From: a virus
Length of the DNA: 37,656 bases
IMG/VR virus record: IMGVR_UViG_3300024054_000537
Location: 1-37,656 of that record
Strand: one strand, 5' to 3'
The notes beneath the pieces are model-generated. The model was given only the letters and a program-made list of their open reading frames with translations. It searched no databases and was not told the DNA's origin. Made by a program: the position numbers and the translations under genes. Every line of letters starts with the position of its first letter. The stretch's first letter is position 1. Positions 1,661 through 35,961 of this stretch are shown here, in pieces.

Positions 1661-4429
1661 CTAGTCTGTAGTTATTGTTATCTGCCCGGTTTTTGTTGAG
1701 AAGGAAATCCTGTAAATCCGCTCGCCAATAGCGACATTAATCAGTTGCAGATTGAGCGCCTCCATTGCTGCGGCAAGAGTAGCGTTACAGCCTGAATTGC
1801 CAACGCCATCGAGTATCGCCTCAATGGCAGCCGAAATGACACCGTCCACTCCTGATGCTCCAGCCAGGTTGACGTCGCAGGAAAGTGCAATATTAATGGC
1901 TCCACTATTTCCGGCACCGCCGCCACTTGTGTACGAAATCTCCCCCGCTGTGCATGAAACTCCGCCGCCGCACCCTATCTTGCCTAAAATCTCGGGTTCC
2001 ATGGGCGACAACGCGGCCGTGAAGACACCCTCGACAGCGGCGGATAAAACACTCACCGCCCCGATGTCCACTCCGCCAAAGCCAGCGGACTTCAATTGGC
2101 TATTCTGCGGGGCGTATCCTCCTTTCACCCAGGCCAACAGATTGGCGATGGTGGCATTTGAGAGATATCCAGTGGTGGTCATGCTAGTCTTGCGAATCTC
2201 CGCGACCCCTTGAAACTCCCAATAGTTACGCCAGCTATGCCGCGCCGAGGCGGTGCCGGTTGCGGTATCGCTGGAACCGTCGAGTGAGTATGAGTTGGCG
2301 TCAATAACCGTTATTGTCCAAGTACCCATCAACCCCGTCCGGGAGGCGGCCGCAATCTGCATCCGGTCGCCCGTAACCTTCCCGTGAGCTGGATGTGCCA
2401 CCACTACCGGCGTCGCGGCGCTGGTAGTGACTGCGGTGAGGGTTTCGGTCAAGCTGCCAGGCTTGTTGTTGGCGGTGCTGATATGAGGATGAGTGCAAAC
2501 GTAATTGATTGGCCTGCCCCCGTAGTAGCCGGTGACGCTTGCGGCCCTTTCATCACCGGCAGCATAGGCGGTGCTTGTCGCCCAGGCCGTGGCCTCTGCC
2601 TTGCCCAGATAAGCGGTAGCAAATGTAGATACGCTGCGGGTGGTATCGACAAAATTAGGGCTTGCCACTGACAGATCGTTGGCACCGATGCTCGTTGGGG
2701 TGGTGTTGTAAAATCCGCTGTACCCCTTCTTGGTATTGGCGGTCACCACGCCGTCAGCATCACCCTGGCTGCCGTTGGTCAAAAATCCATACCAGGCGTT
2801 GTATCGTGACGAAACAACCACATCAACAGGGTAGGCGATATAGGTCTGGCCGAGGGTAGAGTTTGGGAACGCCGGAGAGACGGTGAAGGTGGTGGCGGTA
2901 TTACTTGCCACGCTCCTGATCAGGCCAGCATCCGGGCCGCTGGTGATCTTGACCTTGTAGGTGCCATCGAGCGACCTGTCCCCGGTGGTGAGCGTGGTGG
3001 CCGAAACAATGGCCGTAGCGGTTGATCCCGCCAGTGCCGTCCCTGAAACGACGCTACTTGAGAGCGCAAATATGCCATAGTCGCCGCTATCCTGCCGCTT
3101 GCCGTCAGGTATCCAAAATAGATTATTGAGAATGTCCTCATACTGACCGGCAAACACATTGCTTGCGGCTCCACTCCCGGCAATAGCCCCGCCGAACTGC
3201 GGTGACACGGCGCCAGTAATTGGGACGGTGTTATTTTTCAAGGTTACACCGGACCACTTGGTGCCTTTCATCTGGATGATGCCAGCGGAACCAACACCGT
3301 CCGGAGATAGAGTGATCAGCCAGTGCGATATTTCCGACGGCGCATCGGAGGCTACGGAGATGGCGTTATTGTTGGTAGCGATCCACGACCCGCCGTTGCC
3401 CTGGGGGTTGGCCAGGGCTGACTCATAGACTCCGCCCTTGAGGTTGGCGCGTGTATAGGTGATCTTGCCCTCAATGTGATCGCGGGTCACCCCCATATCA
3501 AGGATATAGGTGTCCTCGATGTCGCCCACGCAATCAGCCAGGGCCATGGCCCCGGTCCGCTGAATCGGGTCGATGATCATGTTATTCTTTACTGAGACGG
3601 GGGGATTGCTGGACGTTGTAAAACCAATCCGGGCAAAAATGCTCCCTTCCAGTTTCCATCGTGAGAGCCTGTATAGACGGACATATCCGTCGATGTCGGA
3701 GTTGGTGATCTCCCTCCTTCCTGTAGTACCCTCGGTGGGAGCAACGTCAAAAAGGATATTATCGCCATAGCGATTGTCGTAGGCGTGAATACGATTAAGT
3801 ACGAAATCCTCGCTACCAGTCCAGCCAATACAATCGAAGAACACCTTGCCTCGCAGTCTGGTATAGACCCCGTTGGTGACACTCAGACTCTGACCCGCGC
3901 CTGGCCTGTACTGGACGGCGGTGAGGTGGCTTGGGTTCCCCAGGTCGGTGTATTTAGCATGGGTGATGAGCACATCACCGCAACCTCCCGACTCGATATA
4001 ACCGTTTGCCCCTCCAGCGTTGGAACGGAAGAGAACTGGACTGGCCTCGGTGCCATTCGCCGTGACATTGGCTGAGGTATGGGTGGACGAGGTTCCCTGC
4101 TTCCACTTATAGCTTGTGGTAGACGGCGAGACAGAAGCGGATGAGTCGAACTCAAGGGTTGATCCAGCCCCGAATGTTATCGGGACGTTACCAAGCGTCA
4201 TGTCTCCTCTTAGGGTGAGCTTGGCTCCGGCAGATAGCGTTATCGATCCTGCTGTTGCAGAAAGAGCAGATGTCCCCTCGGCTCCGCTGGTGCCTATGAT
4301 GGCATTGGACGAAATAGTAACATTGTGCGTGAGCGCAGAGATGCTATCCCCGTCCCCAGGAATACCGTTTGGGGTCCACGTTCCCGGAGCTGACCAATCA
4401 CCATCTGCAGCAGAAGCATACGTTGTCAT
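1661..4429 (-). CDS. Large tail fibre / adhesin with G8-like N-terminus and beta-helix
   Basis: The 922-residue protein starts with a G8-domain-like segment: DGDWSAPGTWTPNGIPGDGD near residues 8-27, then short strands (HNVTISSNAII, GSITLSAGAKLTLRGDM). G8 domains are carbohydrate-associated and found in surface adhesins. The next several hundred residues read as repeated short strands with Asn/Gly turns, as in right-handed beta-helix fibres. The C-terminal quarter has low-complexity Gly/Ser stretches (GGGAGNSGAINIALSC) and a short strand-rich tail. No signal peptide is present, fitting a cytoplasmically assembled phage fibre rather than a secreted adhesin. It sits distal to the kelch fibre, so the phage has two putative host-contact proteins. 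Fibre role inferred; the G8 assignment is by pattern. Confidence 0.72.
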   Translation of the reverse strand: MTTYASAADGDWSAPGTWTPNGIPGDGDSISALTHNVTISSNAIIGTSGAEGTSALSATAGSITLSAGAKLTLRGDMTLGNVPITFGAGSTLEFDSSASVSPSTTSYKWKQGTSSTHTSANVTANGTEASPVLFRSNAGGANGYIESGGCGDVLITHAKYTDLGNPSHLTAVQYRPGAGQSLSVTNGVYTRLRGKVFFDCIGWTGSEDFVLNRIHAYDNRYGDNILFDVAPTEGTTGRREITNSDIDGYVRLYRLSRWKLEGSIFARIGFTTSSNPPVSVKNNMIIDPIQRTGAMALADCVGDIEDTYILDMGVTRDHIEGKITYTRANLKGGVYESALANPQGNGGSWIATNNNAISVASDAPSEISHWLITLSPDGVGSAGIIQMKGTKWSGVTLKNNTVPITGAVSPQFGGAIAGSGAASNVFAGQYEDILNNLFWIPDGKRQDSGDYGIFALSSSVVSGTALAGSTATAIVSATTLTTGDRSLDGTYKVKITSGPDAGLIRSVASNTATTFTVSPAFPNSTLGQTYIAYPVDVVVSSRYNAWYGFLTNGSQGDADGVVTANTKKGYSGFYNTTPTSIGANDLSVASPNFVDTTRSVSTFATAYLGKAEATAWATSTAYAAGDERAASVTGYYGGRPINYVCTHPHISTANNKPGSLTETLTAVTTSAATPVVVAHPAHGKVTGDRMQIAAASRTGLMGTWTITVIDANSYSLDGSSDTATGTASARHSWRNYWEFQGVAEIRKTSMTTTGYLSNATIANLLAWVKGGYAPQNSQLKSAGFGGVDIGAVSVLSAAVEGVFTAALSPMEPEILGKIGCGGGVSCTAGEISYTSGGGAGNSGAINIALSCDVNLAGASGVDGVISAAIEAILDGVGNSGCNATLAAAMEALNLQLINVAIGERIYRISFSTKTGQITITTD

Positions 4430-6204: not shown

Positions 6205-7103
6205 ATCAGGCCCTCGATTTCCAGGTTACAGTCGCTGACAACCGGGCCAGGGATGACGACCCCGAAGTCCCGGGCAAAGCCAAAGATCAGGAGCGGCTCA
6301 AACCCGCCCGAGTCGTTGTTATTGCAGTTCCACAGGGTTGGCTTGCTCCGCACCGAGGCAAGCAGCGCATAGGCGTCGTTGATATTGGCGTTGTCCATCT
6401 GCACAGGAACCGATGCCTTCTTGGCGTAGGCGCCTTGCGACAGGTAGGTGTTGCCAAACTCGTCCGTTGATTTGCGCGAGTAGTCCAATATCCCGGCCGA
6501 GACCCCGAAGCCTGTGTCGCCCAACTGTTTCTTTTCGCCAGCCACCAGCATGCCGCAGGCAGCCTGGCCGGTAAGCGGGTAGATGGTCACGCGGAACACA
6601 GCATATGGCAGCTTCCGCCAGCCGGACTCCACCAGGGCCGAGCGCACCGACAACCCGGTGACGAAATAGCTGTACCAATCAACGATGTCTTCTGTGTGCA
6701 GATCGACCAGGGATGACGTCAGCGCTTCGACCAAGTCGTTGCCGTAAAACTGCTCGATGGTGATCCGGCTGGCCACGACATTCATCAGGACCACGGTGTC
6801 GATCATGGCCCCGGACACGGTAGCGACAATGGACCCGCTGCTGGTGGATTGGGACGAGTTCATGGTGTCGAGCATGGCCCAGCGGTTGGTGGGCCCCAAG
6901 TCTTCCCAGGCCGCCTTGCTGGTGGCCGGGGCATTGCCCACATTGGGGCTGATCAACGACTTGTAGGTATGCACCGGGGTGGCGCTTGAGACCTTGACCA
7001 CGGATCCAACGTCATAGGTGGCGGTGGCGCTGTACTCGGACGCCGAGGCGTCAGGCAGGTTCGAGCCTTCAAGGGCGAGGGGTGATGGCTTGACCAGATA
7101 CAT
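6201..7103 (-). CDS. Putative distal tail / tail-tip protein
   Basis: A 300-residue protein directly after the tape measure (7103 is shared between the two genes) and coupled to the kelch fibre gene by an ATGA overlap. The N-terminus has a short beta module (YDVGSVVKVSSATPVHTYKS) like carbohydrate-binding or collar modules; PTNRWAMLDT near residue 71 is reminiscent of tail proteins of other phages. No protease, NlpC or hub motif is visible. In siphophages this position encodes the distal-tail or tip proteins, so a link between tube and fibres is likely. Function is inferred from synteny. Confidence 0.65.
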   Translation of the reverse strand: MYLVKPSPLALEGSNLPDASASEYSATATYDVGSVVKVSSATPVHTYKSLISPNVGNAPATSKAAWEDLGPTNRWAMLDTMNSSQSTSSGSIVATVSGAMIDTVVLMNVVASRITIEQFYGNDLVEALTSSLVDLHTEDIVDWYSYFVTGLSVRSALVESGWRKLPYAVFRVTIYPLTGQAACGMLVAGEKKQLGDTGFGVSAGILDYSRKSTDEFGNTYLSQGAYAKKASVPVQMDNANINDAYALLASVRSKPTLWNCNNNDSGGFEPLLIFGFARDFGVVIPGPVVSDCNLEIEGLI

Positions 7104-10100
7104 TACTGCGTCACCAAGTCAGCCACCGGCAGGCCGTTGATGTCCCAGCGCTGGTGGACTTTGAGCAGCGTATGGACGTGCAGGGCGATGGCCTTGGTGG
7201 CCGCTGTCAAGGCCTGGACCTCGGCCCGCAACGCCTTGGTATCGCCGTTTGATGCCGTGGCCCCTTTGAGGGAGGCAATGATGCCGCGCACATTGGCCGC
7301 CTCACTCTCGGTGAGGATATGCTCTTCCGGTTGCACGGTCAGGAATCCTTCATCGTTGCGGATGTTGGTGATCCTGCCGCCGGTATGGCCATAGGTCAGG
7401 CCCTTGGCAGAGGCAGCCAGTGCCCCGCCGATCAGGGACTGGATAAAGGCGAAGTCGCTGGCATAGCCGGATGCGGTGCCATTGACCTGCTTGCTCAAGG
7501 ACAGGAACTCACCGGCTGCCCGTTGCAGTTTTTCCATGGCCTCCGGGTCTCCGCTCTTTGACTGCTTGGCGTAGGTGGTCAGGTCGGAGCGCAAGAGGTC
7601 GTATTCCGCCTTGATCCCGAACGGGCTGGCCGCCGAGGTGAGTAGCTCCTTCTGGTACTCGGCCAAGGATTTCCGCTGGGACTCTGAGGCCTGTTCGATG
7701 GCGATCCGCTTGGCCTTCTCCAGATCGGTGTACTTCGCAAGATCGACGCCTGCCGCCTTGAGCTGCTCGGCGTAGTCGGCGAACTGCTGGTTGATGCCCC
7801 ACAGGCTCTTCTCGAACTCGGTCATGCCATGGGTGGCGATGATATCGGCGATGGGCGATTTGGCCTGTGCCTGCTCCTTTTGCAGCTCGGCCTTGAGGTC
7901 GCCGATGAGCAGGGCCCTGGCCTTCTCGAGACTGGTGTACTTCGCAAGATCAACCCCTGCCGCCTTGAGCTTGGCCGAGTAATTGTCGTATTGCGCGTTG
8001 ATGCCGCGCAGAGACCGCTCGTAGTCGGAGAGGCCATGGGTGGCGAGGATCTCGCTGATTGGGGCCATGGCCTGGTCGATGGCCCCGAAGAACTGCTGCA
8101 TGGTGGACAGATCGGCAGCGGAAAAATTTGCTGAGTCAATCTGGGCCTGGATGTTCTTTTGCAGATCAGCAGCGAGGTAGGAGTAAACCTTGTTGTCCTT
8201 CGTCAACGTCTTGGCGATGGAGGGCAGCACGGCCTTAATGGCCTTGCCCATGGCGGCGTCGAGCTTTTCGGCGTAGGCCGTGGCCACTTCGGTGATACCC
8301 TTTTGCTGATCCTCCCAGCGGCCATCGGCCATCACGGAGAAGTCCTGAGCCTCGACAGCCCGCAGGAACTGGTCGCGGACTGCGCCGGTCAGGCCATCGG
8401 CCACGCCTTTAACCTGGTCGGAAAACTTGCTTTGGAGCGAGGCGATGGTGTCAAGGTAGGTGCGGGTGGGCCTGGTGCCGTCGGCCTCAGCCCCTTTGCT
8501 TGTGGTAGTGAATCCGTTGTAGCGGCTGTAGCTCTTGTCAATGAAGCTGCTCAATTCGTCCAGGGTGAACGAGGGGGCGTCGCCACCGCCCAAGAGACCG
8601 CCGAGCTGTGACCCCAGCATGGAGCCGACAATGGTGCCGATCCCCGGCATGATCATTGAGCCGATGTAGGCACCTGCCGCCGATCCTGCCCCTGAAACGG
8701 CGGCGTGGGTGAAGTCTTGGCCGGAGAGGAGACTGGTGACAAAGGTGCCAATCCCGGCGGTGGACGCGCCAAAGGCGTTTGTGGACATCAGGTGCAGCGA
8801 GTCGGCGGCTCCATCAAATCCGTACTTGGCCAAGCCGATCTCAAGGCCGGTCTTTGCCGTGCCAAGGGCCGCGCCGTAGGCCCCGGGGTTGAACAACTCG
8901 GTTACCACGCCCAGGCCTGCAGAGGCATACTTGGCATATGAGGTGGTGCCGCCAAGCATGGTCCCGGCCATGGCCAAGTTGCCGCCCAACTGCGCCGACT
9001 GCGCTGAGGTCATCTGATCCTGGCCCATGATCCAGGTGGCCACCATCTGGACCACCATGCGCTCGAAGGACTTCTCAAACCCGGCCAGGCCGTTCTCACC
9101 GGTGGCCAGCCAGTCGGCCAGGGTGTCGGTCATCCGTTCTCCTGCATGCTCCCAGAGTTTGGCTACCTTGTCCGAGGTCTTCTTGTGTTTCTGCTCCGAC
9201 TCATACAGGGCTGCCAGTTCGGCGTCGGCTCTGGCCTTGAATTTCGCCTGCCACTGGTCGGCCTCATCGAATGACAACCGGCCAGCCTCCACCAGGGAGA
9301 CCAGCCTTTCTTCGAGGACGGCGCAGCTCTTTTCGATGTCGTAGACCTTGCGCTCATGCTCGGTCATGGCGCCGGTGGTGACGGCTTCGAGGTTTGATTG
9401 GTAATCCTTCCAGGCCTCGGTGCCTTTCTTGATCGCGTCCTCTTCTCGTTTTTTCCTCGCCCGGCTATAGTCTTCAAGCATGTCGAGCTGGTGCTTGAGA
9501 CGGTCTTCGTCATCCTTGAACTCTTTGTCCGCCTCACGTTTCCGGTCTTCGGCAAACTTCTTGCGCAGCTCGGCAAGATCACGCTGTTCTGCGGCATCGA
9601 GTGCCGCCAAATCGCTCAGTTCCTTTTGCGATGTTGCCTGGCCCTTATACTGTTCCTCCACCGCCTCCCGCTTGGCGTCATAACTTTTGGTAAGCTTGTC
9701 AATCTCGGCTGCCTCTCCGGAGAGGGTAGAAGCCATGGCGGCTTGGTAATCCTTCCATGTGGCGGTTAGTTCCTTAAGCGTCTTCACTCCCCTTACCGAG
9801 CCATCGGATAACGGCTTGACCGGGTCATCAGTCGGCTGGCGCAGGTAGTCGAGTTCTTCATTGAGGCTGACAAGCTCGGCCGCCAGGTCTTGAATTTGCT
9901 TTTTTGCCCCTTCCTTGAAGACCCCCAGCTCATAGGGAGAGTCCAATCTGCCAGCCGCATCGGCCATCTCCTTCTGGACCTCGCCGATGCGGCGTTTAAC
10001 GTCGTGTTCCAGGCCGGCAACCGTAACATGCCCGGCCCGGCCGGAGATGATATCCAGCAAGTGCGAAACGTTTTCGAGGCGATCCGCAAGAAGGCTGGTG

Positions 10101-24232: not shown

Positions 24233-24768
24233 TATTCATCAGCGCTGTGCTGTCCATCAATACATTTTGCGAGAGTAAAAATAGAAAAAACTGCAGCTAC
24301 TGATGTCAATAACGCATAGATGAAAAAGGTAAAACCAAGATATGCAAAAAATCCTTCGGTGATCTTGTATGATAAATACAACAACGCGTAAATTATCGAC
24401 GTTAATTGAACGAGGATAAAATGAACCATCGAGCCGTTAATCGTCATGAAAGGAGATGGTGACCCATCTTCATCAGGCCCACAGATGAGTTTGAGAAACT
24501 CTTTATCTCCGAATGCTAGAAGAATCGCATATCCTCCCAAGGTGAAACCTAGGATATTTGGCATGACTGACAATACTATATCAAACCAACATTTATCTCC
24601 ATGATCAGGCAATCCTGGGAATATTAGGGAGCCAATAAAGATGGAAATCGTAATATAAGGCGACCTTATGCAGGCTTTCCAACCTCCATAGTTCGCCCAA
24701 TATGAGTCAAGGGAACTGCGGAATCCCTTATATTGGGCGAAAAAATAATCTTTTTCGATTTCACTCAT
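24232..24768 (-). CDS. Four-TM membrane protein, partner of DUF4747-like gene
   Basis: A 178-residue unrecognised protein with four predicted TM segments: about residues 38-52 (YITISIFIGSLIFPGL), 63-86 (FDIVLSVMPNILGFTLGGYA), 113-131 (HFILVQLTSIIYALLYLSY) and 140-165 (AYLGFTFFIYALLTSVAAVF). The start overlaps the upstream stop (ATGA), so both proteins come from one coupled message. AT content is visibly higher than in the flanking phage genes, a sign of recent acquisition. Membrane proteins paired with a soluble partner are common effectors in abortive-infection systems; that role here is inferred and no known family is claimed. Confidence 0.8.
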   Translation of the reverse strand: MSEIEKDYFFAQYKGFRSSLDSYWANYGGWKACIRSPYITISIFIGSLIFPGLPDHGDKCWFDIVLSVMPNILGFTLGGYAILLAFGDKEFLKLICGPDEDGSPSPFMTINGSMVHFILVQLTSIIYALLYLSYKITEGFFAYLGFTFFIYALLTSVAAVFSIFTLAKCIDGQHSADE

Positions 24769-25631
24769 ATGCGACTAATTTCAGACCATAATCTCGAGGA
24801 GAGAGCGTCTAATACATTTATTGCTGGCTGCCGGTCTGGATCATATTTTTCACTTTCGACCAAAGGATGCGGGATGGTATCCTCAATTATTTTTTTTTCA
24901 CCATCATATCCGATGGCGGTTATTCTCCCATTTGATCTGGCAACTTGCATCAAGGCGATAGTTTCCTCGTCCGGCTCTAATCCGATATGCTTATCAGAAG
25001 TGTATTTTTCGGTAAGCGTTTTTGCCCGTTGACTAGCCAAGCGATTCCGGATTTTGGTCTCAAGGTGACTCGTTTCATCTGGGTTGGGAAGGCTGATATA
25101 AATTTCAAGTCGTGTTTTGGTTGGTATTTTTAGAATTTTTTCTATTGCTTCATGGGATGTTTCTACGATGACGTCGACCGGGCCATATTTTGTAACAATA
25201 TGGTCTGAACCAAACAATCCTTGGAAAATTTTCCCAGCACTGCTCGGGGATAGTTTGCTAGAGTCAAAAAACAAACGATGTTTTTGAGGATAAAAAATAA
25301 AGAGAACCCTGCGGAGGTTTGGTTTCAAATAATCTGGAACAGGGGGCGGGTCGTTTTCTCCAATCTCGAGGATCTCTCTTGATCTATTATCAAACCATGG
25401 GTCTCGGCTATTTATATTTACGAATCTGTACAACTCGCCAACTAAGCCCTCCATAGGATCAACATGGTTAAGCGGACGCATCCAACCTATTGTTCCCCAA
25501 TCCGTCCCCCTGATTTTCACACAATCTCTTTTTTGATAGACATCATCAAACAGTGCACGATATAATTCGGGGGTGTGCGGATGTAATTTTATATTCAAAG
25601 CACTCGCGCTCATGACTCGTCTTCTCGGCAT
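24765..25631 (-). CDS. DUF4747-like protein, cargo gene
   Basis: A 288-residue soluble protein. The start at 25631 has GGAGGAG five bases upstream. Recognisable pieces are LNIKLHPHTPELYRALFDDVY at the N-terminus, RVLFIFYPQKHRLFFDS, GKIFQGLF, VDVIVETSHEAIEKIL and RLEIYISLPNPDE near residue 175, which I associate with DUF4747, a family of unknown function on mobile elements. The alternation of helix and strand with a conserved PNPD suggests a nucleic-acid-binding or nuclease-like fold, not proven. It is AT-rich, forms an operon with the four-TM gene and diverges from the NYN gene. It has a candidate promoter at 25678-25707. Confidence 0.72.
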   Translation of the reverse strand: MPRRRVMSASALNIKLHPHTPELYRALFDDVYQKRDCVKIRGTDWGTIGWMRPLNHVDPMEGLVGELYRFVNINSRDPWFDNRSREILEIGENDPPPVPDYLKPNLRRVLFIFYPQKHRLFFDSSKLSPSSAGKIFQGLFGSDHIVTKYGPVDVIVETSHEAIEKILKIPTKTRLEIYISLPNPDETSHLETKIRNRLASQRAKTLTEKYTSDKHIGLEPDEETIALMQVARSNGRITAIGYDGEKKIIEDTIPHPLVESEKYDPDRQPAINVLDALSSRLWSEISRI

Positions 25632-26501: not shown

Positions 26502-26837
26502 TCAAAAGATCCTCATCTGTCTCGCCGCCACATGTTCGGCCCGCAACTTAGCCAGTATCTGATAGAGGCGCTGCTCTGTAATGTCATACTCCTGGCATAG
26601 CGCCGCCTTATTGCCTCCATTCCAGCGGCGGCCGATCTCCCGGTCACGGCGACATAAGTCTACCGATTTCCCCTTGGGCAGATACATGCCTCCCCAGCGC
26701 TCGCGGAGGATTTCCACGGAGTCATGGGCGATGTTCTTCGCCAGGTCATGATCTACTCCTTGGAGGACAAGGAGTTCAATCAGGTCGTCGCGCAGGCCAA
26801 TTAGGGCCTCGGGATATTTTTCCCGCTCACCTGCCAT
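26502..26837 (-). CDS. mor: Mor-family transcription activator
   Basis: A 111-residue protein from the ATG at 26837 (MAGEREKYPEALIGL). It has the Mor/C dimerisation region (IELLVLQGVDHDLAKNIAHDSVEILRERWGGMYLPKG) and a C-terminal helix-turn-helix (WNGGNKAALCQEYDITEQRLYQIL). In Mu, Mor activates the middle promoter and its relative C the late promoters; here only one member is seen, so it probably drives late transcription directly. The last gene of the early operon, it overlaps the gemA 3' end by 11 bases. Confidence 0.93.
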   Translation of the reverse strand: MAGEREKYPEALIGLRDDLIELLVLQGVDHDLAKNIAHDSVEILRERWGGMYLPKGKSVDLCRRDREIGRRWNGGNKAALCQEYDITEQRLYQILAKLRAEHVAARQMRIF

Positions 26838-27267
26838 TGTCCAATCCCCTGTGCAGCCTACTGCCTTTGCGTTTGCTGTCATACTCGAAGGCGGCCACGA
26901 TCTTCCACAGCATCTCCTCGTCGCAAAACTCGATGGCGTCCACTTTACAAATCTTCTTGGCCATACCATTGGCATAGCTCCAGGGCAGGTCGCGCTCGGC
27001 CAGGTGGGCCTCGATCTTGGCCAGCAGCGGGCCGCGTCCGGCAGGCGGCCTGGTGTTTTTGAACGGCGCTTTCCCGGCTTTTTTAGGTTTCTTCGACTGC
27101 CATCCCTTGGCCTTGAAGTGGTTGAGCAGCACGGCCTGCTGCCGGGGAGAGAGCTCCTTGGCGCTGGTCTTGCCGCCGAAGTGGAAGGCGATCACCGCCC
27201 GGTATTCGTCGTCGGTTAGCCTCAAGTCTTTCTTGGCGATGTGGATCTTGGCGAGTACGGCACTCAT
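26827..27267 (-). CDS. gemA: Regulatory protein GemA (Mu gp16, DUF1018)
   Basis: A 146-residue protein with the GemA core: LAKIHIAKKDLRLTDDEYRAVI at the N-terminus, SAKELSPRQQAVLLNHFKAKGW, and a C-terminal DLPWSYANGMAKKIC with EMLWKIVAAFEY. GemA in Mu alters host gene expression and DNA supercoiling. The start overlaps the upstream stop (ATGA). It lies next to mor, as in Mu. Confidence 0.93.
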   Translation of the reverse strand: MSAVLAKIHIAKKDLRLTDDEYRAVIAFHFGGKTSAKELSPRQQAVLLNHFKAKGWQSKKPKKAGKAPFKNTRPPAGRGPLLAKIEAHLAERDLPWSYANGMAKKICKVDAIEFCDEEMLWKIVAAFEYDSKRKGSRLHRGLDNGR

Positions 27268-27773
27268 GGCATGTCCTCCATCAGATGGGCCAGCGGGTTG
27301 ATGCTGGCGATGTTGGTTGGGCCGGTCTGGGCGGCCCCTGGCCGTCTATGGTGCTGCTCCGCCTCCACCCGTCTCCGTTCGCTGGCCGCGTCCTCCATCC
27401 CGGCCATGTCATGGGCCACCTGGCGCAGGTAGTTGTGGTTGGGCAGGGGCCTGGTCAGCCGGTCGCGGCGGTTGACCATATCGTCCATGGCCTGCGCCCA
27501 GATCCGGGGCGGGCAATCACGGTCGGCCCGGCCCTTGACCTGAACGTAACCAACAGCCACCAGGGAGTGCAATGACTCAAGCACCGAGCAGGCCTTGCGC
27601 CAGACCAAGGACCGTTCGGCTGGGCGGAACAGGCTGAGGTAGGCAGGGATGGCGGCGGCAACCGGCTGGGGGAAAGTGGCAATCTTCGCCTCGGCGCGTT
27701 TGGCGTCGGCATCGGTGGTGAACATCTCAAAGGAGCCTCTTGCTCCGCAACATTGGCAAATCAACTCCGTCAT
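27264..27773 (-). CDS. Hypothetical early protein with N-terminal CxxC
   Basis: A 169-residue protein, not assigned to a family. It opens with MTELICQCCGARGSF and continues helical (ATFPQPVAAAIPAYLSLF, RSLVWRKACSVLESL), then a region resembling a small winged helix and a flexible Arg/Gln-rich tail. Only one CxxC pair is present, so a zinc site would need other ligands. It is the first gene after the folded element at 27817-27923, directly upstream of gemA and mor, and may be co-regulated with them. Confidence 0.65.
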   Translation of the reverse strand: MTELICQCCGARGSFEMFTTDADAKRAEAKIATFPQPVAAAIPAYLSLFRPAERSLVWRKACSVLESLHSLVAVGYVQVKGRADRDCPPRIWAQAMDDMVNRRDRLTRPLPNHNYLRQVAHDMAGMEDAASERRRVEAEQHHRRPGAAQTGPTNIASINPLAHLMEDMP

Positions 27774-27816
27774 TATCTGCTATTTCCTTAGGTTATTGTT
27801 TTGGCTTGCTCATCAG

Positions 27817-27923
27817 TGCCGGATCGCCACATCCGGCAGACCGCACCATGGGACTCTTTTCAGTACCCCCTTGAGGGGTAGGCAGGGGAGGAGGGGGAAC
27901 CTGCCGTGGTCCCATGGTGCGGT
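27817..27923. other. Highly structured intergenic element (hairpin plus three-way junction)
   Basis: A perfect 8-bp hairpin (TGCCGGAT/ATCCGGCA, 27817-27824/27831-27838) abuts a perfect 15-bp outer stem (ACCGCACCATGGGAC, 27840-27854, with GTCCCATGGTGCGGT, 27909-27923). The outer stem encloses two further inverted repeats, TACCCC/GGGGTA and GGCAGG/CCTGCC. In either transcript this can fold as a three-way junction. It begins 5 bases after the zinc-ribbon gene's stop. No U-run follows it on the minus strand, so it is not a standard terminator; attenuation, mRNA processing or a small RNA are possible. Confidence 0.75.
27885..27897. repeat. Second copy of 13-base polypurine repeat
   Basis: GGGGAGGAGGGGG, identical to 24113-24125 and in the same orientation. 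It lies in the loop region of the structured element, about 110 bases before the next minus-strand gene. Confidence 0.7.
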
Positions 27924-27928
27924 TTCGC

Positions 27929-28087
27929 TTAATTCACTAGGGAGAAATCCTCTGTTTTCAGTACGGCATAGTGTTCGTTCCGGCACCACGGGCATTGATA
28001 ACCGACCTCGATGCCATCCTCTTCCGCGTCCCGCTCTATGCCCATCAGCGTCACATCGACCTCTCCGTCACAGGTTGGACATTGCAT
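27929..28087 (-). CDS. Small zinc-ribbon protein
   Basis: A 52-residue protein from the ATG at 28087 (MQCPTCDGEVDVTLMG). Two CPxC pairs (C3/C6 and C32/C35 approximately; QCPTC and QCPWC) form a zinc ribbon. The start follows the DUF3164 stop almost directly (TGATATG). An early gene of unknown role; Mu Com is also a small zinc protein, but Com acts at mom and lies elsewhere, so homology is not claimed. Confidence 0.72.
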   Translation of the reverse strand: MQCPTCDGEVDVTLMGIERDAEEDGIEVGYQCPWCRNEHYAVLKTEDFSLVN

Positions 28088-28088
28088 A

Positions 28089-28700
28089 TCACACCGCCGC
28101 CATGTCCAGCGGGATCTGCTGGTAGCTGCCATCGGCCTGCCGCACCGAAAAGCGCACGTAGGGCTCGCCGTATTCGGTGGTCACCGCGTCGTTGATCGCC
28201 GCCACCGCCTGCTGCCAGCTCTCGGACTGGCTCTTGACCCGCCTGGCCAGGGAGAGCAGGGCCGAGGGCGAGAAGTTGCCCTGGTCGTCGCAGCGGAAGG
28301 CCGCCCGCACCAGGCGCTTGGTCTCCTCGGCCAGATCGCCGGAGAGCGATTCCACGTGCCTTGACACCAGCTCCTTGGCCACCACCACCCGTTCGTTGAC
28401 CTCCAGCCTGCGGCTGTGCAGCCGCTCGACCCGGATCGATCCGTCGAATGATTGCAGCGCCACGTTGCCGCTCTTGCCACCGATCGTTACCCGGTACTGG
28501 TCGGCAGCGAGCTGGACATGGGCCTGGATGGTGTCCAGCCACTCCTGCTTTACCTGGCGCATGTAATCTGCCAGGTCGCGGGCCGAGTCGAGCATTGCCG
28601 TGACGACCGTGTCCCGCTGCTGGTCCAGGTCCGAGATGTCGGTTAGCGGCACCAGGTGGCCGCGATGATCTTTCTTGTATCCCTCGGGGATCTTCTCCAT
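28089..28700 (-). CDS. DUF3164 protein from internal start
   Basis: The in-frame ATG at 28700 has a perfect AGGAGG at 28713-28708 with a 7-base spacing, within codons for LGGKK. It would yield a standard-length 203-residue DUF3164 protein. Both the fused and the short form are likely made. Confidence 0.7.
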   Translation of the reverse strand: MEKIPEGYKKDHRGHLVPLTDISDLDQQRDTVVTAMLDSARDLADYMRQVKQEWLDTIQAHVQLAADQYRVTIGGKSGNVALQSFDGSIRVERLHSRRLEVNERVVVAKELVSRHVESLSGDLAEETKRLVRAAFRCDDQGNFSPSALLSLARRVKSQSESWQQAVAAINDAVTTEYGEPYVRFSVRQADGSYQQIPLDMAAV

Positions 28701-28874
28701 CTTCTTTCCTCCTAATGTTTCCATGACCTTGGCCTCGATGTTGCCGGTCGAGGCCGGATATTCGCCGCGCTTGGCAAGGCTGACGGTGGAGACCGAAACC
28801 CCCAGCCGCCGCGCCACCTCCGCCTGGCCCAGGGCCGCTATTGCCTCGTTCAATACTGCCGTCCAGTCGCTCAT
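28089..28874 (-). CDS. HTH-DUF3164 fusion protein
   Basis: A 261-residue protein. Residues 1-57 are a Cro/XRE-like HTH domain (ALGQAEVARRLGVSVSTVSL, with recognition helix TVSLAKRGEYP). From residue 59 a complete DUF3164 protein follows, beginning MEKIPEGYKKDHRGHLVPL and including DGSIRVERLHSRRLEVNERV. DUF3164 is widespread in Mu-like early operons and normally stands alone. There is no stop between the parts. The start has GGAGG five bases before it and overlaps the upstream stop (ATGA). The function of DUF3164 is unknown; the HTH suggests DNA binding. Confidence 0.85.
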   Translation of the reverse strand: MSDWTAVLNEAIAALGQAEVARRLGVSVSTVSLAKRGEYPASTGNIEAKVMETLGGKKMEKIPEGYKKDHRGHLVPLTDISDLDQQRDTVVTAMLDSARDLADYMRQVKQEWLDTIQAHVQLAADQYRVTIGGKSGNVALQSFDGSIRVERLHSRRLEVNERVVVAKELVSRHVESLSGDLAEETKRLVRAAFRCDDQGNFSPSALLSLARRVKSQSESWQQAVAAINDAVTTEYGEPYVRFSVRQADGSYQQIPLDMAAV

Positions 28875-29305
28875 GCCGCCTCCAGCTCCACTGGTTTCAC
28901 AGCTGTTATGCGGGCCTCCGCTACTATGCGGGCCTCCGCCTCGGCGGCGCGGATATACTTGTGCATGGTCTGGGCGGTGAGGTTGAGCATCGCCAGACAC
29001 AGGCTCAAGACTTGTGGATTACCGGCCTCGGTCGCTGGCAGTCTGCCGATCAGCTCCATAATGGCGCTGAGGTTGCGCTTGGCAGCGGTCAGGTAGCCCT
29101 CGGCGATGGCCGTTTCCACAGTGTCGTCCAGTGATGATGCCTGGAGCGACTCCTCGTCGTCGGCCAGGAGGTGGCGGCCTATCCGCTGCAGGGACTCGAC
29201 CTGGGTGGAAATAGCGCCCCAGGGTGCATGGGCCTGTAGGGAGGTGACGATGTCGATCAGCGCGCGGCCGAGGTCGTGGGTGGTCTCAGGGTGCTTGGTG
29301 TTCAT
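28871..29305 (-). CDS. Hypothetical early helical protein
   Basis: A 144-residue, mostly helical protein from the ATG at 29305 (AGGAGA before it). Segments such as LGRALIDIVTSLQAHAPWG, AAKRNLSAIMELIGRL and LCLAMLNLTAQTMHKYIRAA predict a helical bundle. The C-terminus contains an 18-base tandem duplication (TATGCGGGCCTCCGC at 28907-28921 and 28925-28939) encoding a repeated EARI. No family recognised. It sits where Mu carries kil/gam-like genes, but no Gam signature is visible. Confidence 0.65.
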   Translation of the reverse strand: MNTKHPETTHDLGRALIDIVTSLQAHAPWGAISTQVESLQRIGRHLLADDEESLQASSLDDTVETAIAEGYLTAAKRNLSAIMELIGRLPATEAGNPQVLSLCLAMLNLTAQTMHKYIRAAEAEARIVAEARITAVKPVELEAA

Positions 29306-29865: not shown

Positions 29866-30600
29866 TCAGCCTCCCTGCAAGCCGGATTTGACGGCGATGG
29901 CTGCCGTTTCGCCGCTGACCTCGCCGGTTCGGTCCATGGAGGTGACCACATGGACCAGGTTGATGGTGTCCCGGCGGATGATGCGCAGATCTCCACCCGA
30001 GGCCTTGTGCATCACCGTCATGGCCTCGGGCGTCAGTTTGAGGCCGGTGGTCTGGTTGACGAAGGTCACCACATCGACGGCGGAGGCGGCCTGGAACTCC
30101 ATCTCCCGGTAGGTGCGGGACCAGACCCGGCGGTTCTGCTTCATCAGGTGGGGCAGCTCCTCCTCGCCGACCAGCACCACGATGCCGCCGCTCATCTTGG
30201 CCAGGTCCCGGATCACCTCCAGGAGCCGCTGGCCGAAGCGCTCGATCTCGTCGATAAAGACCGGCCTGGGGTTGATCAGCATGGCGTCCAGGCAGTCGGC
30301 AAAGGCCTTGCCCCGGCGGCCCGCCGGGTGGCGGATGCCGAGCTCGACGCTCAAGGCTCGGAGGAAATCGAGCTCGCTCCAGATCGATACCGTCTCCAGG
30401 TAGACGGCGGCGTGGTTGGCCGCCCAGGCCTGGACGGTGCGGGTCTTGCCCCGTCCGGCCCGGCCCCAGACGCAGGCCAGGCGCTCGTCGCCGTCCCGGT
30501 GTCCGCCCTTGGCCAGCAGCAGGCCGTCCATCATCGACTGGAAGCCGCCGACGTTCCGGGTGTTGACAAACTTTGGTGTGAATTGTATTTTTGCTGCCAT
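29866..30600 (-). CDS. B: MuB-like transposition ATPase
   Basis: A 244-residue AAA+ ATPase from the ATG at 30600, which has GGAGGTGA as Shine-Dalgarno. Walker A is GRAGRGKT (46-53) and Walker B PVFIDEI (113-119); VVLVGEEELP provides a sensor-1-like strand. It binds target DNA and delivers it to the MuA transpososome. It is shorter at the N-terminus than Mu B (312 residues), lacking the N-terminal HTH domain. It lies downstream of the transposase, separated by a 96-base structured gap. Confidence 0.93.
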   Translation of the reverse strand: MAAKIQFTPKFVNTRNVGGFQSMMDGLLLAKGGHRDGDERLACVWGRAGRGKTRTVQAWAANHAAVYLETVSIWSELDFLRALSVELGIRHPAGRRGKAFADCLDAMLINPRPVFIDEIERFGQRLLEVIRDLAKMSGGIVVLVGEEELPHLMKQNRRVWSRTYREMEFQAASAVDVVTFVNQTTGLKLTPEAMTVMHKASGGDLRIIRRDTINLVHVVTSMDRTGEVSGETAAIAVKSGLQGG

Positions 30601-30601
30601 G

Positions 30602-30646
30602 TCACCTCCATCCGTAGTGTGATATCTCAATGAACCGGGCTGCCAC
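30602..30646 (-). CDS. Possible 14-codon leader ORF before MuB gene
   Basis: A GTG at 30646 preceded by AAGGAG (spacing 6) opens a 14-residue frame, VAARFIEISHYGWR, whose TGA overlaps the MuB Shine-Dalgarno. The GTG lies within the 30632-30653 hairpin, so its use could be conditional. It may couple MuB translation; existence is uncertain. Confidence 0.3.
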   Translation of the reverse strand: MAARFIEISHYGWR

Positions 30647-30662
30647 CCGGTTCTCCTTTTTT
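30632..30662 (+). terminator. Rho-independent-type terminator facing +
   Basis: GAACCGGG/CCCGGTTC (30632-30639/30646-30653), a 6-base loop, then TCC and six T on the + strand. No + gene precedes it, so it may block antisense transcription into the transposase gene. On the minus strand the same hairpin lacks a T-run. Confidence 0.55.
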
Positions 30663-30669
30663 CAGTCCC

Positions 30670-30698
30670 AGAAACGTCCACCAGTGGTGGACGTTTCT
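30670..30698. other. 29-base palindrome at the transposase stop
   Basis: AGAAACGTCCACCA (30670-30683) and TGGTGGACGTTTCT (30685-30698) are a perfect 14-bp inverted repeat around a single G. It overlaps the transposase stop codon (30697-30699). With a one-base centre it is more likely a protein-binding site in DNA or a cruciform than an RNA hairpin. Confidence 0.7.
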
Positions 30699-35289: not shown

Positions 35290-35961
35290 ATGGACGTCGA
35301 CGGGTTCAGAGACAGGCTCCGTATTGCTATCGGGGACAAGAGTATTCGAGGGATCGCGCCCCTGTGCGACTCTACTGATGGCACACTGCGACGATATTTA
35401 AGCGGCGAATCGACGCCTACATTAGATCGCATAGTCCCAATTGCCAAAGCAACCAACACCGATGTTGTTTGGTTGGCATTCGGCGAAGGCCCAATGCGGC
35501 CAGGAAGGGATCATCCTGATGAGGAGCACGCACCGGGAGACTGGTCCGTGGTGCCACAATATGGCGATCGGCTCTCCGCCGGGGCTGGGTCATTCATTGA
35601 AAACGGCAACAATGTCGAGGTGGTGGGAAGCTTTGCCTTTAAGCCGAAGTGGCTCAACCGCAAGTGTCCTTCAGGCAAATGTGCCGTCTTCCGGGTGGCA
35701 GGTGACTCCATGTTCCCCATCATTCAAGACGGGGACGTGGTGCTGGTGGACATGAGCCAGAACGATCCGCTCATGGTGCGGGATGGCAAGATTTACGCCT
35801 TCAGCGAGGGAGATTTCATCAAGGTGAAACGGTTAGTGCGGCAAGGGAGTGAACTTTGGGCCATCAGTGACAATAAGGCGGTAAGCCCAGACTGTATTAT
35901 TGACATGAGCATCTTCTCGCTGATCGGAAGAGTGATCTGGATCGGGCACGAGGTGTGGTAG
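35290..35961 (+). CDS. Phage repressor, HTH plus S24 peptidase domain
   Basis: A 223-residue CI-like repressor. Residues 5-65 are an XRE-type HTH (KSIRGIAPLCDSTDGTLRRYL). A linker with SAGAGS (96-101) offers Ala-Gly bonds for cleavage. The S24 domain has the catalytic pair S140 (AGDSM) and K180 (IKVKRL). It maintains lysogeny and may respond to RecA after DNA damage, unlike Mu c, which lacks an S24 domain. No Shine-Dalgarno is seen before the ATG, so translation may be leaderless or weak. It diverges from the early operon. Confidence 0.93.
   Translation: MDVDGFRDRLRIAIGDKSIRGIAPLCDSTDGTLRRYLSGESTPTLDRIVPIAKATNTDVVWLAFGEGPMRPGRDHPDEEHAPGDWSVVPQYGDRLSAGAGSFIENGNNVEVVGSFAFKPKWLNRKCPSGKCAVFRVAGDSMFPIIQDGDVVLVDMSQNDPLMVRDGKIYAFSEGDFIKVKRLVRQGSELWAISDNKAVSPDCIIDMSIFSLIGRVIWIGHEVW

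Follow-up and report, generated by a model that had tools for sequence, protein, structure and literature searches.

Genes at the locus

The window analysed here, by which is meant the whole stretch of DNA, is 37,656 nt long and corresponds to positions 1 to 37,656 of IMG/VR record IMGVR_UViG_3300024054_000537. Its early genes lie on the minus strand, starting beside a CI-like repressor (35290-35961, plus strand), and follow one another in the order two small regulators, Mu-type transposase, transposition ATPase, DUF3164, a small ORF, a folded element identified below as a putative ribozyme, a phrog_2161 family gene, gemA and mor. The element fills the gap between the small zinc-ribbon-like gene and phrog_2161-gemA-mor, on their strand, and the recognised genes flanking it on both sides are minus-strand coding. 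The initial annotation of this DNA had placed the element before a gemA-mor operon. GemA and Mor do come after it, but the gene directly downstream is the phrog_2161 ORF and not gemA. The genes concerned are as follows.

29866-30681, minus strand: transposition ATPase
28089-29000, minus strand: DUF3164 gene, upstream in the operon (Pfam PF11363, 3.5e-50)
27929-28132, minus strand: upstream small ORF, 67 amino acids as listed, its ATG possibly internal, with two CxxC motifs, zinc-ribbon-like
27264-27773, minus strand: phrog_2161 family gene, the first after the ribozyme (PHROGs, 9.1e-30)
26827-27267, minus strand: gemA (Pfam PF06252, 3.3e-20)
26502-26975, minus strand: mor, transcription activator (Pfam PF08765, 4.4e-20)

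The upstream small ORF has a weak match to Pfam DUF7351 that falls below the cut-off. A DUF4747 gene (24765-25631, minus strand; Pfam 4.7e-61) lies soon after mor. Single-protein searches with the phrog_2161 and DUF3164 proteins of the window found no relatives. Between 26400 and 29100 the minus strand holds no terminator-like site (a GC-rich hairpin followed by a T-run), and the one promoter-like site on that strand in the same interval lies past the element, in the gemA/mor stretch. The element should therefore be transcribed within the early operon.

Identity of the folded element

For the region 27790-27945 the fold is better than those of dinucleotide shuffles whichever strand is taken. 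The minus strand gives z -4.86, with 0 of 200 shuffles reaching its level; the plus strand is less clear, at z -3.17 and 2 of 200. A covariance model search of the whole window with cmscan returned a single Rfam match, to RF02276, on the minus strand from 27930 to 27799 (53.3 bits against a gathering score of 37, E 2.1e-8). The alignment is full length, model positions 1-66 being complete. The route used for searching genomes scored the same ribozyme at 36.7 bits, just under the cut-off, probably as a consequence of its long stem III. Stems I and III are closed and stem II is open, which is the layout of a type II hammerhead, and the core contains CUGANGA, GAAA, an A15.1-U16.1 pair (A27923-U27840) and C27839 at H17 (C17), in the usual hammerhead numbering. 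The core bases are all intact, as are the three stems. Judged on its sequence, the folded element is a type II hammerhead ribozyme encoded on the minus strand, with the following parts.

27799-27930, minus strand: type II hammerhead, whole match (RF02276, 53.3 bits; covariance model R1, described below, 39.7 bits, E 3.7e-9)
27929-27931, minus strand: UAA stop codon that closes the upstream small ORF, immediately ahead of stem II (sequence)
27927-27928, minus strand: first strand of stem II (GC), pairing with 27808-27809 (sequence and Rfam alignment)
27923-27926, minus strand: catalytic GAAA, the last A of which (27923) pairs with U27840 (Rfam alignment and sequence)
27909-27923, minus strand: first strand of stem III, 15 bp with 27840-27854 (inverted repeat, fold and Rfam alignment)
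27855-27908, minus strand: 54-nt insert at the end of stem III, with hairpins 27900-27905/27881-27886 and 27874-27880/27864-27870 (folds)
27840-27854, minus strand: second strand of stem III (inverted repeat and Rfam alignment)
27838-27839, minus strand: predicted cleavage site, after C17 (27839) of GUC and before U27838 (position in the Rfam alignment)
27817-27838, minus strand: stem I, 27831-27838/27817-27824, with loop GUGGCG at 27825-27830 (repeat, fold and Rfam alignment)
27810-27816, minus strand: catalytic CUGAUGA (Rfam alignment and sequence)
27808-27809, minus strand: second strand of stem II (GC) (Rfam alignment and sequence)
27802-27805, minus strand: 3' tail GCCA, which can pair with UGGC of loop I (27826-27829) as a type II pseudoknot (sequence)

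The initial annotation described the secondary structure well. The perfect 15-bp inverted repeat (27840-27854/27909-27923) is stem III and the perfect 8-bp hairpin (27817-27824/27831-27838) is stem I; the two hairpins reported within the 15-bp stem appear in the computed folds, and the gap contains no terminator-like site, as had been remarked. The span given, 27817-27923, holds these stems but leaves the catalytic strands outside at both sides. As to function, the suggestion of a processing site agrees in kind with a self-cleaving ribozyme, to which all sequence tests point, although neither the strand nor the ribozyme had been named. The other suggestions did not fare as well. An attenuator is not borne out by any terminator-like or promoter-like site at the element on the gene strand. 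A small RNA finds no support either, there being no promoter-like site and no matching Rfam family besides the hammerhead. An RNA switch finds no counterpart among known riboswitch families, since RF02276 was the only Rfam match in 27700-28100 at E values up to 1; antisense RNA families were likewise without a match in that interval and at that threshold. That the element may act directly on Mor and so on the lytic programme, as had also been put forward, is suggested only by its position in the operon.

Relatives and covariation

The pattern GTCTGCC...GGCACTGATGAG...GCC was found in 118 viral contigs and in 29 bacterial genome contigs. Model R1 confirms 22 of the latter (E < 1e-6) and the other 7 may be chance matches. 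Hits in the viral contigs were checked by script alone, which recognised a stem III connecting GAAA with the cleavage triplet at 119 of 125 places (viral contigs and the window together); the 6 places at which it found none were left out. R1 was built from 49 viral places with a short regular stem III, with no sequence repeated and with the window excluded.

Covariation among relatives, which had been proposed as a check on the structure, proved to be strong in these 49 sequences. In the alignment 97.1% of cells are paired, and the number of cells in which both partners have changed is 162 as against 55.2 +/- 5.0 after shuffling, with 0 of 500 shuffles as high. The covariation score is 0.509, compared with 0.125 for shuffled alignments and at most 0.175 when the pairing is slid by 1-3 columns. 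Each of the three stems holds pairs that have changed on both sides, and this includes the outer pair of stem II, which covaries between G-C and U-A. R1 recovers the window, yet it scores the window below most of the relatives.

The pairing between loop I and the 3' tail is a different case. The window can form 4 bp, and a pairing of at least 4 is possible in 72 of 78 unique pairs of loop and tail; shuffled tails gave a mean of 69.1 and a maximum of 74. The observed number is not above that for shuffled tails, so that covariation lends the pseudoknot no support. A pseudoknot of the loop I-tail type was tested through mutation in work reported in part of Perreault et al. (PMC3088659).

Several relatives depart from the usual form. 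Two loci (L175 and L176, both at 3416-3493, plus strand) have the core CCGAUGA in place of CUGAUGA (U4C) in an otherwise intact ribozyme. The locus with the closest GemA (L156) carries a divergent match at 2159-2222, plus strand (43.8 bits in Rfam), and no GAAA was found in its first strand. Locus L086 has four consecutive type II hammerheads at 6983-8420, plus strand, each followed by a small ORF that has no Pfam match, as if each gene had its own cutter. Four hammerhead matches also occur on one contig of a Lachnospiraceae MAG (L143, 959-3318, minus strand).

The long stem III

The spacer from GAAA to the cleavage triplet could be measured in 162 of 184 ribozymes, the 22 without an exact GTCTGCC being left out. 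That of the window, at 81 nt, is the longest, the median being 21 and the 95th percentile 28. The next longest (67 nt) belongs to L086, where a shorter alternative stem exists. Such a length, together with the three-way junction that the insert forms, might indicate an allosteric ribozyme in which the two-hairpin insert binds a ligand or a protein and so switches cleavage. We regard this as extremely unlikely. Folded alone, the 54-nt insert is little better than expected (z -1.36, with 20 of 200 shuffles as good) and it matches no Rfam family; a pattern for the exact stem matched 0 viral contigs (viral_contigs), so that no relative with the long stem III of the window was found there; and the 15 bp of stem III that separate the insert from the core would insulate the core from it. 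The insert is taken as harmless growth of a stem that tolerates changes in length.

Operon position and the fit to stop and start codons

The position of the hammerhead in the operon recurs among its relatives. In the pattern-derived loci, with the window excluded, all matches to GemA, Mor and DUF3164 are on the strand of the ribozyme. Counted by pairs of ribozyme and gene, GemA is downstream in 88 of 88 and Mor in 77 of 78, and DUF3164 is upstream in 72 of 73. At 49 places at least 3 kb of sequence is available on both sides. GemA is downstream at 35 of these, 34 of which have DUF3164 upstream as well, and at 12 of the 49 GemA, Mor and DUF3164 are all absent nearby.

The hammerhead also keeps a register with the gene before it. 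In the commonest register, seen in 77 of 181 nonredundant ribozymes and in the window among these 77, the stop codon of the longest upstream ORF starts 5 nt ahead of GAAA. The stop falls 4-6 nt before GAAA in 102 of 181, as compared with 30 of 1395 control GAAAC sites, 6 of 117 GCGAAAC sites and 105 of 6450 GAAA sites; for 4-12 nt the figures are 138 of 181 against 73 of 1395, 12 of 117 and 262 of 6450, respectively. The upstream ORF ends later in 6 of 181. Control sites were taken from the same contigs with likely ribozymes excluded. An unfiltered GCGAAAC control (62 of 236) was discarded, being contaminated by further ribozymes on those contigs. Control ORFs had at least 45 codons, and the same rule applied to the ribozymes drops 1 of 181 and leaves the quoted counts unchanged. 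Three of 184 ribozymes were too close to a contig end and were dropped, and L156, L195, L220, the second site of L200 and L170 (in which the script did not match the core) were excluded. The stops comprise TAA, TGA and TAG, so the register is not merely the conservation of a letter of the RNA.

On the other side, a downstream start lies within 40 nt of the start of CUGAUGA in 137 of 180 (43 nt in the window). A Shine-Dalgarno sequence was counted in 152 of 180, which is an upper estimate because gene boundaries were chosen by script (the longest ORF and the best-looking start).

This fit might reflect a ribozyme coupled to translation, in which a ribosome ending the upstream gene or starting the downstream one decides whether the RNA folds, such that cleavage reports translation. 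Given the size of the ribosome footprint, GAAA and the beginning of stem III would lie under a ribosome terminating in the commonest register, and the downstream starts are close to the other end. In some folds of the RNA from the window, stem I can be masked by a segment of the small ORF. That masking is lost, however, when more of the ORF is folded (probability of stem I 0.94 from 28090 and 0.02 from 28020), and a noncoding element among tightly packed phage genes would show this register in any case. Coupling of this kind is rather unlikely on our assessment, and the close packing of phage genes could alone explain the register. A broader form of the idea holds that a large Mu-like clade has a translation-gated cutter, with the upstream stop set close against one end of the ribozyme and the downstream ribosome-binding site against the other. 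Ribosomes finishing one gene or starting the next would then block folding, and the early mRNA would be cut before gemA-mor only if translation lags. Although we think it unlikely to be correct, such gating would, if true, mean that ribosomes control a ribozyme in nature.

When stems I and III are imposed on the RNA of the window, the fold lies 0 to 6.3 kcal/mol above its optimum, and with stem II added 1.3 to 8.6 kcal/mol above it, depending on where the RNA is taken to start. The codons of the second CxxC of the small ORF (27976-27992) can pair with stem I and stem III. A switch based on pairing of the small ORF with either stem was considered and rejected, its effect being contradictory between transcript starts.

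The adjoining genes are far from uniform. Grouping by homology divides the 179 genes directly downstream into 52 groups, six of which hold 121 of them, and the 177 directly upstream into 66. The ribozyme is retained where the genes beside it often differ, and this favours a role in the transcript as a whole over one tied to a single gene.

Distribution among phages

Because the pattern itself selects ribozymes, loci were also picked by GemA alone. Eight GemA proteins near that of the window (set A2, viral_contigs) led to 80 loci kept of 561 confirmed relatives. R1 has a match in 71 of the 80, always on the gemA strand, and in 70 the match is upstream of gemA at a distance of 24-2789 nt. For one of the 71 (L195) the match is a fragment of 26 nt where the contig ends (E 0.0015). 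With GemA clustered at 90% identity, 41 of 48 clusters have the ribozyme. In 25 of the 80 loci (L161, L165, L177 and L230 among them) gemA is preceded by a pair of hammerhead matches, both on the same strand and separated by roughly 250 to 1170 nt. Locus L183 (945-1017 and 2090-2159, plus strand), in which the sequence upstream is cut short, has its hammerhead downstream of gemA and not upstream, and it also has a C4 antisense RNA match just after gemA.

At the remaining 9 of the 80 loci no hammerhead was found, nor any other Rfam family at gathering scores. The absence of the ribozyme from these loci, and the low R1 score of the window relative to most of its relatives, would be expected of a decayed ribozyme that has no function and has been kept by chance. 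The intact core and stems in the window and the strong covariation in relatives argue against decay, which we hold to be very unlikely.

With the GemA of Mu as the query a hammerhead was found in 0 of 33 loci, and with that of the B3-type phage Fc02 in 1 of 50. Both sets consist of close relatives and were counted without clustering; on the upstream side of gemA, sequence is lacking altogether in L311 and extends for less than 1 kb in L269. The hammerhead is a trait of some clades of Mu-like phages and not of all. It is mostly absent from the Mu-type and B3-type loci and is missing from 9 of 80 loci in its own group, and thus it is not essential to the gemA operon.

Among seven named phages Rfam detects a hammerhead in five, namely LPB1 and Nox (Pseudomonas), YPCBV-1 (Chromohalobacter), B23 (Alteromonadaceae) and Mae-JY22 (Microcystis); it found none in the stretches examined of Mu and of Leptolyngbya phage Lsp-JY19. 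In phage D3112, R1 has a match at 9438-9514 (63.4 bits) that starts on the TGA of orf16 (annotated 9171-9440). The stretch of Fc02 that was examined contains no convincing ribozyme (12.2 bits with R1 and none in Rfam); part of PMC9936078 indicates that RNA-Seq exists for this phage.

A proposed role in processing the early transcript

The reading that we favour, and consider likely on the sequence evidence, is that a type II hammerhead in the early polycistronic mRNA of a Mu-like phage cuts that mRNA so as to part the replication genes from gemA-mor. As RNA polymerase copies the stretch, the RNA of minus-strand sense would fold during transcription, the fold being held by stem II and the pseudoknot between loop I and the tail, and would then cut itself between 27839 and 27838. 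The upstream messenger would carry the transposase, the transposition ATPase, DUF3164 and the small zinc-ribbon-like gene, and the downstream messenger the phrog_2161 gene, gemA and mor; the cut would probably fall just ahead of the genes that set off later phage development. Hammerhead cleavage leaves a 2',3'-cyclic phosphate and a 5'-OH. The cyclic phosphate would accordingly terminate the upstream piece, at the long hairpin of stem III, and the 5'-OH would be the first group of the downstream piece, at the hairpin of stem I. Structured ends of this kind may slow decay, and the two halves could be used and degraded separately.

Comparison with known systems

The preference of hammerheads for Mu-like phages is already in print. 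Passages of a 2023 paper (PMC10085705), citing Roth 2014 and Weinberg 2015, name genes of Mu-like phages as those with which hammerheads and twisters show their strongest association, and call the biological reason for it still unknown. In the relevant parts of Perreault et al. 2011 (PMC3088659) the processing of long phage transcripts is proposed as one possible role, cleavage products are reported for three tandem arrangements, and the precise functions of such ribozymes are called unclear. Among the matches listed in our literature search, which covered work outside subscription papers, no title or abstract describes the interval before gemA-mor, the stop-codon register or the clade distribution.

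The present observations narrow the question of why phages keep self-cleaving ribozymes. They place the hammerhead in one operon interval, mostly just outside reading frames and, at every site with GemA, Mor or DUF3164, on the coding strand, among neighbours that change more than the ribozyme does. One GemA group often carries it and two others seldom do. Since D3112, a cultured P. aeruginosa phage, carries the ribozyme at the orf16 stop, the question can be tested in a known phage.

The HHphage hammerhead of the haloviruses HF1 and HF2, as described in part of PMC3088659, lies 13 nt before a helicase gene, and a mapped transcript 5' end near its cleavage site suggests activity in vivo. It resembles the ribozyme of the window in its place before an early phage operon, and differs in being a core variant from an archaeal virus. 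The hammerheads of Mu-like phages in PMC10085705 belong to the same ribozyme class and the same kind of phage as that of the window, and the passages concerned are without the operon map, stop-codon register and clade distribution given here. With the type II hammerheads of RF02276, to judge from the sections of PMC3088659 that treat them, the window shares the core bases, an open stem II of 2 bp, closed stems I and III, a possible pseudoknot between loop I and the tail, and an intergenic setting in a prophage. It differs from them in its stem III, which bears the 54-nt two-hairpin insert and has the longest spacer of the 162 measured.
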